Source: an uncultured Eubacteriales bacterium
GTDB taxonomy: Bacteria; Bacillota; Clostridia; Christensenellales; Aristaeellaceae
Assembly: GCA_902790495.1 (NCBI GenBank)
Contig: CADASK010000021.1
Span: 1 to 35,354, forward strand
Direction of reading: 5' to 3'
DNA: 35,354 bases
The notes beneath the pieces are model-generated. The model saw nothing but the letters and a program-made list of their open reading frames with translations. It was not told where the DNA came from and ran no database searches. The translations under genes and the position numbers were made by a program. Below are positions 1,916-32,954 of this stretch, one piece after another (the stretch's first letter is position 1; every line of letters starts with the position of its first letter).

Positions 1916-1977
1916 GCGAGCGAAGGGGTGCAGGGGGCGATCGCAAAGCCCCCTGCCCGCGCCCGCAGGCGCGGAAC
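1916..1977 (+). repeat. Structured intergenic repeat, copy R1 (short form)
   Basis: The copy begins 43 nt after the pepF stop. It shows GCGAAGG, then a 9-bp stem (1930-1938 GCAGGGGGC with 1948-1956 GCCCCCTGC) closing the loop GATCGCAAA, then a 7-bp hairpin CCGCGCC-CGCA-GGCGCGG (1957-1974) and GGAAC. It has no T-run, so it is not itself a terminator. It is one of seven related copies in this window and is nearly identical to R6. Confidence 0.9.
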
Positions 1978-1980
1978 CTA

Positions 1981-2015
1981 AAAAAGACCACAGGCACCCT
2001 GCCTGTGATCTTTTT
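1981..2015. terminator. Bidirectional intrinsic terminator between pepF and the convergent membrane-protein gene
   Basis: A 16-bp stem with one mismatch (1981-1996 with 2000-2015) and a 3-nt loop. It begins with AAAAA and ends with TTTTT, so it can end transcripts from pepF (+) and from the gene ending at 2025 (-). Confidence 0.85.
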
Positions 2016-2024
2016 GCAAATCCC

Positions 2025-2384
2025 TTACGCCACCTTGTCATTCTGCATCAGCGCTTCGTTCTTCTCCTCCGTCACAATCTCCCAGTGCAGCAGGAAGGTC
2101 AGGGCGACGCGCAGAATGATGATGACACCGACCATGCCGGCCTGGACCCAGCTCGCGGCGACAATGGTGTGGAACACCTCGCCCGCCAGCATGAACTCCA
2201 GCGCCACGGAGATGCCCCGGGCCAGCTTGAGCCGCACGTGCGGGGATTTGCGGAAATAGGAGATCAGGCCCTTGCAGAGGGTGATCAGCAGCACCACGAT
2301 GCCGATGCCCTCCGCCAGCACCGCGCCGATCTCGGCCAGGTTGTGCAGGACGTCGTTCTGCAGGAATTCGATGACTGCGTGCAT
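2025..2384 (-). CDS. DUF1622-like small integral membrane protein
   Basis: A 119-residue hydrophobic protein with three likely membrane spans (about residues 15-38, 58-78 and 82-103) separated by a short basic loop (FRKSPHVRLKLARG). The layout and the loop sequence resemble the DUF1622 family, whose role is not known. The ATG at 2384 is preceded by AAAGGAAG at a good distance. It is divergent from hemW and convergent with pepF, and shares the terminator at 1981-2015. No metabolic role can be inferred from its neighbours. Confidence 0.75.
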   Translation of the reverse strand: MHAVIEFLQNDVLHNLAEIGAVLAEGIGIVVLLITLCKGLISYFRKSPHVRLKLARGISVALEFMLAGEVFHTIVAASWVQAGMVGVIIILRVALTFLLHWEIVTEEKNEALMQNDKVA

Positions 2385-2417
2385 GTTGTCGCTTCCTTTC
2401 GTGAATGGAATATGGCC

Positions 2418-2442
2418 ATCGTCAAACTGTTCAGCTGACGAT
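2418..2442. other. Inverted repeat in the divergent region before hemW
   Basis: ATCGTCA (2418-2424) and TGACGAT (2436-2442) form a 7-bp inverted repeat with an 11-nt spacer, directly before repeat copy R2 and between two divergent genes. It could be an operator or an RNA hairpin in the hemW leader; nothing more can be said. Confidence 0.35.
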
Positions 2443-2445
2443 CGC

Positions 2446-2565
2446 AGCGAAGGTTTCCAAAGAGCTCGGAGCGCCCGGAAAACGCCATGTTATGGCGTTT
2501 TCAGCGGAGAGCGGGCGGCAGCCCCGGACCGATCGCAAAGCCCTTTGGTCGCCGCCCGCAGGGGA
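2446..2565 (+). repeat. Structured intergenic repeat, copy R2 (long form with 65-nt module)
   Basis: GCGAAGG is followed by the stem arm CCAAAG, then a 65-nt module (2465-2529), then the family's CGATCGCAAAG and the closing arm CCCTTTGG. Inside the module a 10-bp hairpin (2479-2488 with 2492-2501, loop GTT) is enclosed by CGCCCG (2472-2477) and CGGGCG (2512-2517). The second hairpin starts normally (CGCCGCCCGCA), but its 3' arm is replaced by GGGGAG, which is placed to act as the ribosome site of hemW. Confidence 0.85.
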
Positions 2566-30846: not shown

Positions 30847-30848
30847 CC

Positions 30849-30897
30849 AACAGAACCAACGGCCTGCAATGATGGCGGGCAGCCGGTTCTGTTTTTT
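30849..30897 (+). terminator. Terminator of the mraZ-ftsQ cluster
   Basis: AACAGAACC (30849-30857) pairs with GGTTCTGTT (30885-30893), with further inner GC pairs, followed by a T-run to 30897. Confidence 0.92.
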
Positions 30898-30906
30898 CAC
30901 AGGCTC

Positions 30907-30934
30907 TTGCACTTTTGCTGATTCTGTGTATAAT
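30907..30934 (+). promoter_or_regulatory. Promoter of glmS
   Basis: TTGCAC (30907-30912), a 16-bp spacer and a perfect TATAAT (30929-30934). Only about 30 nt of leader separates it from the start codon, so there is no room for a glmS ribozyme. Confidence 0.85.
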
Positions 30935-30970
30935 ACATTATGATACATTTCACCGACGGAGGAGATTCCC

Positions 30971-32809
30971 ATGTGTGGTATTGTCGGATTTACGGGCCAT
31001 GTGCAGGCCTGCCCCATTCTGCTGGACGGGCTGGAGCGCCTGGAATACCGCGGCTATGATTCCTGCGGCGTCGCCGTCTCCCACGAGGAGAACGGCGCGA
31101 ACCGCATTGAGGTGGTCAAGATCAAAGGTAGGCTGAAGGGCCTGCGGGAGATGACGGACAACGGCAAGACCCTGGACGGCACCTGCGGCATCGGCCACAC
31201 CCGCTGGGCCACCCACGGCGAGCCGACCGTGGCCAACGCCCACCCGCACTTCGCCAAGGACAAGCGCATCACCGTGGTGCACAACGGTATCATCGAGAAC
31301 TACCAGGAGCTGCGCGACAACCTGATCCGCCGGGGCTACGTCTTCAACAGCCAGACGGACACGGAGGTCATCGCCCACCTGTTGGATTACTATGACAAGG
31401 GCGACCCGCTGGAGGCCATCGCCCGCACGCTGGCACGCATCACCGGCTCCTACGCCCTGGGCATCCTCTTCCAGGACAGGCCGGGGGAGATCTACGCCGT
31501 GCGCAAGGACAGCCCGATGATCGTGGGCCGCTCGGACGAGGGCTATTTCATTGCCTCCGACGTGCCCGCCATCCTGCGCTACACCCGCAACGTCTGCTAT
31601 GTGGACAACATGGAGATCGTGCGCCTGACGCCCGACAGCGTCACCTTCTACAATGTGGACCAGGAGGAGCTGTCGAAGGACTTCACCACGGTGGAGTGGG
31701 ACGCCGAGGCCGCCGAGAAGGACGGCTACGCCCACTTCATGCTCAAGGAGATCCATGAGCAGCCCCGCGCCATGACCGAGACCATCAGCCCGCGCATCAA
31801 GGACGGCAAGATCAACCTGGACGAGCTGGGCCTGACGGACGAGGAGATCCGCTCCATCCGCCGCATCCAGATGACGGCCTGCGGCTCCGCCTACCACGTG
31901 TGCGTCACCGCGAAGTACGTCATTGAGCAGCTGGCGCGCGTGCCCGTGGATGTCGACCTGGCCAGCGAGTTCCGCTACCGCAATCCGGTGCTGGAGGACA
32001 ACACCCTGCTGATTGTCATCAGCCAGAGCGGCGAGACCGCCGACAGCCTGGCGGCGATGCGCTACGCCAAGGAGCGCGGCTTGACGACCCTGGCCGTGGT
32101 CAACGTGGTTGGGTCGTCCATCGCGCGGGAAGCGGACAAGGTGTTCTACACCTGGGCCGGCCCGGAGATCGCCGTGGCGACGACCAAGGCCTACTCCACC
32201 CAGCTGGCCGCCTGCTACCTGCTGGCGCTGCGCTTCGCACAGGCGCGGGGCGAGCTGACCGAGGAGGAGACGGGCAAGTACCTGGCGGAGCTGCAGACGC
32301 TGCCGGCCAAGATCACCCGCCTGCTGGAGGAGAAGGAGCGCATCCAGTGGTTCGCCAACAAGTTCTCCGGCAGCCGCGACATCTTCTTCATCGGCCGCGG
32401 GCTGGACTACGCCTCCTCGCTGGAGGGCAGCCTGAAGCTGAAGGAGATCTCCTACATCCACTCGGAGGCCTACGCGGCGGGCGAGCTGAAGCACGGCACC
32501 ATCTCCCTGATCGAGAAGGGGACACTGGTCGTCGGCGTGGCAACCCAGCCGGGGCTTTTCGAGAAGGAAGTCAGCAACATGGTGGAGGTGCGCAGCCGCG
32601 GCGCCTACGTGCTGGGCATCACCTGCGACGGCAACTACGCCATCGAGGATCACGACGACTTCACGATCTACGTGCCCAAGACGCTGCCCTGCTTCTACCC
32701 GAGCCTCGTGGTGATTCCGCTGCAGCTGCTGGCCTACTACGTCTCGGTCTCCAAGGGTCTGGATGTGGACAAGCCGCGCAACCTCGCAAAATCCGTCACG
32801 GTGGAATAA
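30971..32809 (+). CDS. glmS: Glutamine-fructose-6-phosphate aminotransferase (isomerizing)
   Basis: Makes glucosamine 6-phosphate, the entry to UDP-GlcNAc and hence to the peptidoglycan pathway encoded just upstream. The 612-residue length is normal. Cys2 in MCGIVGFTG is the glutaminase nucleophile; LEYRGYDSCGV and HTRWATHGEP follow. Two SIS sugar-isomerase domains start at TACGSAYHVC with SQSGETADSL and at IFFIGRGLDY. The C-terminus KPRNLAKSVTVE is the conserved tail. The ATG follows GGAGGAG. It has its own promoter and is followed by repeat R7. Confidence 0.97.
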   Translation: MCGIVGFTGHVQACPILLDGLERLEYRGYDSCGVAVSHEENGANRIEVVKIKGRLKGLREMTDNGKTLDGTCGIGHTRWATHGEPTVANAHPHFAKDKRITVVHNGIIENYQELRDNLIRRGYVFNSQTDTEVIAHLLDYYDKGDPLEAIARTLARITGSYALGILFQDRPGEIYAVRKDSPMIVGRSDEGYFIASDVPAILRYTRNVCYVDNMEIVRLTPDSVTFYNVDQEELSKDFTTVEWDAEAAEKDGYAHFMLKEIHEQPRAMTETISPRIKDGKINLDELGLTDEEIRSIRRIQMTACGSAYHVCVTAKYVIEQLARVPVDVDLASEFRYRNPVLEDNTLLIVISQSGETADSLAAMRYAKERGLTTLAVVNVVGSSIAREADKVFYTWAGPEIAVATTKAYSTQLAACYLLALRFAQARGELTEEETGKYLAELQTLPAKITRLLEEKERIQWFANKFSGSRDIFFIGRGLDYASSLEGSLKLKEISYIHSEAYAAGELKHGTISLIEKGTLVVGVATQPGLFEKEVSNMVEVRSRGAYVLGITCDGNYAIEDHDDFTIYVPKTLPCFYPSLVVIPLQLLAYYVSVSKGLDVDKPRNLAKSVTVE

Positions 32810-32844
32810 TGCGTTTCGATTAAGAACTGCACTCGTTAGGAGGC

Positions 32845-32954
32845 AGGCGAAGGGGTGCAGGGGGCTCGGAGCGCCCGGAAAACTCCATGTTATGGAGTTT
32901 TCAGCGGAGAGCGGGCGGCAGCCCCGGACCGATCGCAAAGCCCCATCCCTGCAG
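32845..32954 (+). repeat. Structured intergenic repeat, copy R7 (long form with 65-nt module)
   Basis: It begins 36 nt after the glmS stop. GCGAAGG and the arm GCAGGG (32857-32862) are followed by the same 65-nt module as in R2 (32865-32929), then CGATCGCAAAG and the closing arm CCCTGC (32947-32952). The module hairpin AAAACTCCAT-GTT-ATGGAGTTTT (32879-32901) differs from R2 at two paired positions only. The second GC hairpin of the family is absent here. Confidence 0.87.

Follow-up and report, generated by a model that had tools for sequence, protein, structure and literature searches.

Dispersed intergenic repeats of Clostridia appear to be mobile DNA under selection for the shape of a pseudoknotted core

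Introduction

REP and REPIN elements, which go with RAYT (Y1) transposases, are short intergenic hairpin repeats found in hundreds of copies per genome, with a fixed 5' foot motif. The foot of the REP/RAYT hairpin carries a GTAG-type guide, and REP hairpins are thought to block 3'-5' exonucleases or to bind a regulator. H-type pseudoknots with major-groove triples are found in telomerase RNA and SAM-II, and major-groove G.G-C and A.A-U triples occur in tRNA. Here we analyze a family of intergenic repeats represented by seven copies in a contig of 35,354 nucleotides (CADASK010000021.1, assembly GCA_902790495.1; the whole contig is referred to as the window, and the genome it comes from as the own genome) from an uncultured Eubacteriales bacterium of the Aristaeellaceae (Christensenellales). 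The conserved core of these repeats is predicted to fold, on one strand, as a pseudoknot of comparable topology, accompanied by a linker that would act as the third strand of a triple helix.

The closest known kinds are intrastrand-triplex repeats and miniature inverted-repeat transposable elements (MITEs), and the closest kind found in print is the intrastrand-triplex repeats TMECO and PIT (Holder 2015, PMC4666352, with earlier work by Hoyne and Maher cited therein). Counts of potential triplexes in bacterial genomes go back years, but cellular relevance was left open, since footprinting in E. coli failed to show the triplex (PMC4666352). The IS1182 family, according to the sections consulted of PMC5678879, includes IS1272 and palindrome-targeting members; IS1272 replaces stem-loops, and duplication of the whole stem-loop is a modelled alternative outcome. 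An early report that purine-motif triplexes do not accept RNA strands was later disputed (PMC7515735, consulted sections).

An earlier note, made from the letters of the window, had described seven copies with a constant loop, a stem whose arms change together and, usually, a second GC hairpin, and had read this plan as the mark of selection or spread through RNA or single-strand DNA structure. Each of the seven copies was confirmed, and that interpretation is well supported by the comparisons below. The note overlooked the pseudoknot behind the loop, the coupling of a third-strand linker, a long form of the element and a subfamily with loop GATCGGAAA.

Results

A tail-loop helix behind the hairpin

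The core has a sharp left edge at GCGAAGG (across the family, [GC]CGAAGG) and a right edge at AACC or AATC. Its loop sequence TCGC is complementary to the 5' tail GCGA, and a sister subfamily has CCGA with TCGG, both partners having changed together. Since tail and loop can pair and change in concert, the core topology is predicted to be that of an H-type pseudoknot. In the patterns used to collect copies, loop CG and tail CGAA are set in advance and a stem is required, so that pairs 2:24 and 3:23 carry no evidence; nucleotide 1, loop nucleotide 6 and the linker letters were left free. At the free positions, tail nucleotide 1 and loop nucleotide 6 form a Watson-Crick pair in 299 of the 303 copies (out of 319) assigned the standard layout by tail-loop distance, 169 as C-G and 130 as G-C; one copy has T-G and three are mismatched. 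Both compensated states occur within 12 of 41 distinct linker/stem backgrounds.

An alignment of 50 unique 37-mers has 666 column pairs. When these were ranked by mutual information, with no structure given, this pair (1:25) came second, and the ten highest pairs consisted only of stem pairs, the pseudoknot pair and linker-stem contacts. Viral contigs were scanned with a pattern open at nucleotide 1, in the linker and over most of the stem, which gave 50 places with the stem (36 loci, some from one contig) and 15 without it. The pseudoknot pair is complementary at 49 of the former and at 5 of the latter. The loop-tail helix thus covaries at pair 1:25, as an H-type pseudoknot demands; the linker and the core's 3' end, examined as pairing partners, showed no covariation in the 11 testable combinations. 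The copy sets behind the 50-haplotype, ranking and 319-copy analyses overlap, and 8 of the 31 viral-contig haplotypes had already been seen.

The stem (P2) behaves as the earlier note had said, with two-sided changes in five of its nine pairs and 99.8% of stem cells paired, a figure biased by the choice of rows partly for stem pairing; the stems do not lose pairing at the rate of chance. In alignment A3, two-sided change affects 9 of the 16 pairs of P2 and the GC hairpin P3, the tenth such pair being 1:25. Across the whole structure 96.8% of cells are paired, compared with 84.3% after shuffling and at most 44.2% after sliding, and further pair types show no excess (17 vs 18.0 shuffled). The covarying second hairpin was likewise found (CGCCGCC/GGCGGCG vs CCGCGCC/GGCGCGG). 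It is optional: P3 is cut short in copy 2447 and missing in copy 32847. By eye it is lacking in several viral-contig copies, for which reason the pseudoknot-triplex looks like the essential part of the core. Five short forms fold better than shuffled sequences (z -2.5 to -4.1), and two long forms no better (z -1.7 and -0.7).

A linker that follows a triplex code

Between tail and stem lies a linker of the form AGGnnT, which mirrors the purine 5' arm of the stem: AGGGGT goes with GCAGGGGGC, AGGGTT with GCAAGGGGC, AGGTTT and AGGATT with GCAAAGGGC, and AGGAGT with CCAGAGGGC. Its length tracks that of the stem (AGGT with 7 bp, AGAGT with 8, AGGGGGT with 10), with exceptions such as AGGTT with a 9-bp stem at locus L032. 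Taken as a putative third strand, the linker covaries with the purine arm in the combinations G.G-C, T.A-T and A.A-T, which are those of purine-motif triple helices. In 50 unique haplotypes, layer 15 is G.G-C in 24, T.A-T in 16, A.A-T in 4 and another combination in 6, and layer 14 is T.A-T in 23, G.G-C in 20 and another in 7, so that the rule is obeyed in 87 of 100 layers (shuffled null: mean 45, maximum 66). In the viral-contig set 58 of 62 layers conform, for a null with mean 30 and maximum 46; when only the 23 haplotypes new to the analysis are counted, 42 of 46 do.

Among purine-arm hairpins of the own genome, linkers with at least five triplet layers accompany 40 of 442, vs 6.4 with swapped flanks, and 38 of 39 such hairpins with listed loops belong to the element family. 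The same test gave 44 of 227 (vs 15.8) in G024, 6 of 73 (0.4) in G138, 3 of 34 (0.6) in G014, 3 of 60 (0.6) in G198, 2 of 52 (0.4) in G112, 2 of 20 (0.4) in G099, 1 of 34 (0.2) in G174, 2 of 88 (1.2) in G810, 0 of 83 (0.2) in G032, and 0 of 20 and 0 of 6 (both vs 0) in G215 and G091. The zero in G032 arises because the sampled copies mostly have stem CCTAGGGGC, whose innermost T-A layer forbids five consecutive layers.

A wider triplex superfamily, considered because of weak matches of model R2 in G810 and two f17 genomes, was rejected, as the linker rule is not enriched in G810 or G215. Loci L235, L237, L238 and L240 (G810), together with L222 and L223, do show a related plan (a GC stem, a short loop, a P3-like hairpin and AAATCCCC), with no pseudoknot loop and no enrichment of the linker rule.

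Copy number, subfamilies and distribution

The earlier note had tied its proposal to further copies elsewhere in the genome; the loop word GATCGCAAA occurs 369 times (183 + 186) in the 2,466,513 bases of the own genome, and a reversed-pattern control 0 times. A sample of 20 stretches plus the window (418 kb) contains the word 78 times; a script with looser criteria picked out 96 element-like places there, comprising 58 short, 32 long and 6 odd forms. The loop is less constant than had been claimed: GATCGCAAA occurs seven times in the window, once per copy, but the family also has GATCGGAAA, GACCGCAAA, GACCGGAAA and GAGCGGAAA. With nothing fixed except a 9-nt loop closed by a perfect stem of 7 bp or more, GATCGCAAA (43) and GATCGGAAA (12) were the commonest loops of the sample, apart from the inner hairpin of the long form itself (22).

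The long form carries 65 additional nucleotides between the 5' stem arm and the loop. The idea that this domain is an independent insert was discarded, because each of its 30 matches in the sample continues into the loop of an element. This loop is GATCGCAAA in 24 cases and a variant one letter away in the other 6, of which two lack the left part. In G099 about 30 listed places resemble the domain of the window copy at 81-83%, with identical scores recurring, which suggests a recent burst there. Another recurring word, CTCAGTC..GACAGCTCTCCCAGAGGGAGAGCC or similar, adjoins some elements (L001, L008, L016) and is sometimes fused to P3, and at L049/L121 (G058) three same-sense copies lie within 280 bases, with loops GAGCGGAAA or GAACGGAAA and the fourth pseudoknot pair lost.

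Within the same family, model R1 detects the element in 40 of 200 genomes, which belong to 12 of 50 genera. Model R2 detects it in 9 of 297 genomes of the order (six within the family, two with weak single matches, and G389 with four) and in 3 of 398 genomes of the phylum (the own genome, and weakly G810 and G798). A pattern scan of the whole collection matched at least 51 stretches; among the matches listed, most titles name Clostridia or Clostridiales. Of nine listed stretches from other named groups, eight had no R1 match at E 0.01 and one, from Rhizobium, had a weak match (29.6 bits); matches in these groups are probably due to chance. With copy 12233 as query, six unannotated fecal phage records were matched and no plasmid.

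Presence, absence and larger units

Copies are absent, or exchanged for other subtypes, at matching sites of a relative. In G138, which is syntenic with the window, four of the six testable window copies are absent (12233, 18632, 28161 and 32847) and two are replaced; conversely, G138 carries two copies at places that are empty in the window. At 1920 and 2447 both genomes hold an element, of differing subtype or form and with unrelated left flanks. The ~430-bp segment between these two elements differs from G138 at some four positions, by eye, whereas the genes beyond it are 87-89% identical. Intergenic sequences have diverged too far for exact insertion points to be resolved. This segment (1980-2410) holds a minus-strand open reading frame of 119 aa (2025-2384).

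In G033 the core sits inside a unit of ~222 nt with inverted ends CAGACTGTTGAAAAA and TTTGTCAACAGTCTG. An earlier contrast between core and arms (98% vs 67-69%, 21 copies) had been drawn with the core pattern and was therefore biased; it was redone from left ends alone. Of 41 units picked by the left end only, 22 have a left arm with at least 0.70 identity to consensus, 16 of them with a core of at least 0.90. In the 17 units whose core reaches 0.90, mean identity is 0.98 for the core, 0.87 for the left arm and 0.79 for the right. Full-length cores gather fewer substitutions than arms, yet cores can be lost. L184, L185, L206 and L207 have the usual left arm and a core that is cut or replaced after GGTTTCCAAAGGG, or missing; L168, L181 and L197 hold a second repeat of ~180 nt that has the same CAGACTGTYRAAAAA ends without a pseudoknot core and was possibly moved by the same enzyme.

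By eye, a whole terminator-like hairpin is duplicated at the ends of nine units in G033, three in G032 and one in G162. These insertions appear directed by the structure of the target hairpin, as in IS1182-type MITEs. In two genera the core lies within units with inverted ends, and a part of these units have a whole terminator hairpin, in duplicate, on their flanks. Scored automatically, flanking direct repeats accompany 12 of 24 copies in G033 (swapped-flank fraction 0.10), 4 of 8 in G032 (0), 1 of 6 in G162 (0), 5 of 25 in G024 (0.19; a count confused by tandem repeats), 0 of 15 in G198 (0.01) and 0 of 67 in the own genome (0); the hairpin duplications just named are among these repeats. No clear target duplication or outer stem at fixed offset was seen in a set of 108 copies, and flank words at variable offset did not exceed permutation in the own genome. 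In a set of 34 copies taken at other loci they did for words of 8 letters (direct 15 vs a mean of 7.6; inverted 13 vs a mean of 6.8). Inspection of 57 copies showed a direct repeat scoring at least 11 in 9, several of which are neighbouring elements.

Transposases and database searches

The DDE_Tnp_1_6 matches, three in G032 and five in G033, we take to be of IS1182 type, with PF05598 and PF13751 presumed to mark that type. One insertion sequence of G032 has ends CAGACCGCTGACAAA and TTTGTCAGTGATCTG, which match each other and the right end of the G033 unit at 13 of 15 positions, by eye; a perfect hairpin lies just beyond its right end, and its left end coincides with the contig start. As motor of the whole family, IS1182 finds no support in a cross-table of 200 genomes. 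The REP-associated Y1 transposase that the earlier note suggested looking for was not found in the own genome; matches to it occur in 6 of 20 element-carrying genomes examined, drafts that may lack repeats, and a Y1/RAYT origin is unsupported.

The earlier note knew of no named family with this plan, and Rfam agrees: in the whole window only two tRNAs reach gathering score, no window copy has a match at threshold, and element matches elsewhere are sub-threshold. Literature searches turned up no such family recognizable by title among the titles listed, and six core words of 15-18 letters had no match in 5.39 million papers.

Gene context

By a home-made gene caller, the core is intergenic. Between co-directional genes the own-genome copies lie in gene sense 48 to 22 (p=0.0025), or 51 to 19 with a looser element list, and in relatives 14 to 7 (p=0.19). 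Copies start at a median of 40 nt past the stop codon, compared with 69 nt for random placement, and 31 of 92 follow a gene on the opposite strand. Gene direction and replication direction are inseparable in this set, with 6 copies on minority-strand gene pairs.

Copies in the window

The coordinates and layout of the seven window copies are collected in Table 1. Two tandem tRNA-Met (CAT) genes lie on the minus strand at 15790-15945.

Table 1. Element cores in the window, with their parts and their state at the matching place in G138
Feature	Position	Strand	Core start	Parts	G138
Short-form core	1920..1979	+	1920	tail 1920-1923; linker L1 1924-1929; stem P2 1930-1938/1948-1956; loop 1939-1947; hairpin P3 1957-1974	
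Long-form core	2447..2571	+	2447	tail 2447-2450; L1 2451-2456; P2 5' arm 2457-2465; extra 65-nt domain 2466-2530; loop 2531-2539; P2 3' arm 2540-2548; truncated P3	different subtype at matching place
Short-form core	5875..5934	-	5934	stem GTCAGGGGC/ACCCCTGAC; linker AGGGTT	contig ends here
Short-form core	12233..12292	-	12292	stem CCAAAGGGC/GCCCTTTGG; linker AGGTTT; P3 TCGCCGCC/GGCGGCGA	absent at matching place
Short-form core	18632..18691	+	18632	stem GCAAAGGGC/GCCCTTTGC; linker AGGTTT	absent (syntenic)
Short-form core	28161..28220	+	28161	stem GCAGGGGGC/GCCCCCTGC; linker AGGGGT	absent (syntenic)
Long-form core	32847..32943	+	32847	tail 32847-32850; P2 5' arm 32857-32865; extra 65-nt domain 32866-32930; loop 32931-32939; beginning of P2 3' arm; no P3	absent (syntenic)

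Discussion

To judge from these comparisons, the repeats appear to be mobile DNA that selection maintains for its shape. The reading that we prefer, with a probability of roughly 0.57, is that of a large non-autonomous interspersed family in which, as the covariation shows, one strand of the ~60-nt core is selected to fold as an H-type pseudoknot. Along its stem P2, of 7-10 bp, linker L1 would form the third strand, in antiparallel orientation to the purine arm, with the optional GC hairpin P3 following. The inverted-end units would be miniature transposons of IS1182 type. A mobilizing or host protein may recognize the folded strand, which is probably single-stranded DNA made accessible by replication or transposition. 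Such recognition would keep full-length cores nearly free of substitutions while the arms diverge. A narrower proposal makes spread or upkeep of the element dependent on a purine-motif triple helix, pseudoknotted and formed by single-stranded DNA; it is tentative, with the odds somewhat against it.

Several results weigh against this picture. Six of the 22 G033 units with a good left arm have a core that is truncated, replaced or reversed, and the core is therefore dispensable for the existence of a unit. In the own genome, target duplication was found around none of 67 copies, inverted flank words are not in excess, no inverted ends were detected, and neither the Y1 (PF01797) nor the IS1182-type transposase has a match. 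The latter is not associated with the element across genomes (11 of 40 carriers vs 45 of 160 others), its link to the units is a single 13/15 end match across two genera, made without a control, and another such gene, a DUF772 gene of G033 (L210), has no matching ends. Within the core, pair 4:22 (A with loop nucleotide 3), which can form in 38 of 50 rows, does not covary, triplet layer 10-13 hardly varies, and the bias of G.T over A.C in P2 and P3 is weak (18 to 8) and points only faintly to the displayed strand as the folding one.

The core may instead act as RNA, as a pseudoknot in the 3' untranslated region with a major-groove triple, whose GC hairpin would block 3'-5' exonucleases or bind a regulator, mobility having only spread it. 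The gene-sense excess of the own genome, the short distance from the stop codon, the conservation of full-length G033 cores over their arms, the folding scores of the five short forms and the natural occurrence of comparable triples in tRNA all speak for such a role, and RNA pseudoknots of similar topology with an A-rich third loop are known. Yet a third of the copies (31 of 92) stand behind an opposite-strand gene, the excess in relatives is slight, random placement alone already gives a median of 69 nt, and the two long forms fold no better than shuffles. In G032 and G033 the terminator copy that precedes the unit should shield it from upstream transcription, and the 6 minority-strand copies do not separate gene from replication direction. 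We consider this role possible, if on the unlikely side. As to which molecule is active in any role, we lean slightly towards DNA, with RNA nearly as plausible, and an activity of neither would be the poorest guess.

Alternatively, the copies might be mere relics of IS1182-type MITEs with the core as passive cargo, a reading that draws on the inverted ends and hairpin duplications of G032 and G033, the 13/15 resemblance to one IS1182-type element and the units without an intact core. It also suits the stem-loop targeting of IS1272, for which duplication of the whole stem-loop has been modelled (PMC5678879, consulted sections). Passive cargo, however, would neither maintain a covarying pseudoknot and triplex nor hold the core at fewer substitutions than the arms; transposase and element are unassociated over 200 genomes, duplications are lacking in the own genome, and cores there seem conserved outside a MITE context. 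This makes it a distinctly doubtful account. That the repeats are ordinary palindromes whose covariation reflects a few founder subtypes, amplified or homogenized by gene conversion, is improbable. There are indeed few subtypes, each in many copies, and the sequences are related, so that alignment cells are not independent events, but both pseudoknot states recur across backgrounds, new viral haplotypes obey the triplet rule, and all ten top-ranked column pairs are structural. A ribozyme like that of hepatitis delta virus can practically be dismissed: one window copy, representing one subtype, matches the CPEB3 ribozyme at 19.5 bits (gathering 35, E=0.0024), a sub-threshold match judged to be chance, but eight other loci give no such match at E up to 1, the pairing topology differs, and the 3' flank does not, by eye, track the stem type as a closing helix would need.

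If the narrower proposal is true, natural selection has put the triplet code into hundreds of copies, which would speak, on comparative grounds, for the importance of such a triplex in living cells. Three strands covary by that code, and evolution thereby reports on structure. The family offers natural compensatory variants ready for triplex and pseudoknot tests in DNA and RNA, places a structured core inside units that insert at, and duplicate, terminators, and adds to the described repeats of gut-type Clostridia one that had no Rfam match at threshold in the window.

Like TMECO and PIT, as far as the consulted sections of PMC4666352 describe them, the elements are intergenic, have variable positions and could form a purine-motif triplex from a single strand, here in the class I order (third strand, purine, pyrimidine). 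Unlike them, they occur in Clostridia and have a tail-loop pseudoknot, usually P3, and three-strand covariation; none of the strings 'pseudoknot', 'covar' and 'clostridi' is found in that paper. With about five triplet layers and a 9-nt loop, they differ from the ITxF limits given there (stems 6-15 nt, loops 1-6), and, by reading of alignment A3, they do not match the TMECO consensus CCCTCNCCC..GGGNGAGGG..GGGNGAGGG. The inverted ends in G032 and G033 somewhat resemble those of one IS1182/IS1272-type element, whose MITEs also insert at stem-loops; in IS1272 the hairpin is reported to be replaced (PMC5678879, consulted sections), whereas here it is duplicated whole, and the transposase is unassociated with the family and not found in the own genome.

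With REP and REPIN elements the family shares hundreds of short intergenic hairpins in one genome and a fixed 5' foot motif; it differs in that no Y1 was found in the own genome, the foot, [GC]CGAAGG in place of a GTAG-type guide, would pair with the loop, and a triplex linker is present. As in telomerase RNA or SAM-II, L1 would lie in the deep groove of the second stem and the third loop is A-rich; unlike in those RNAs, the purines are in the 5' arm, so that L1 would run antiparallel, and the element is present in hundreds of copies.

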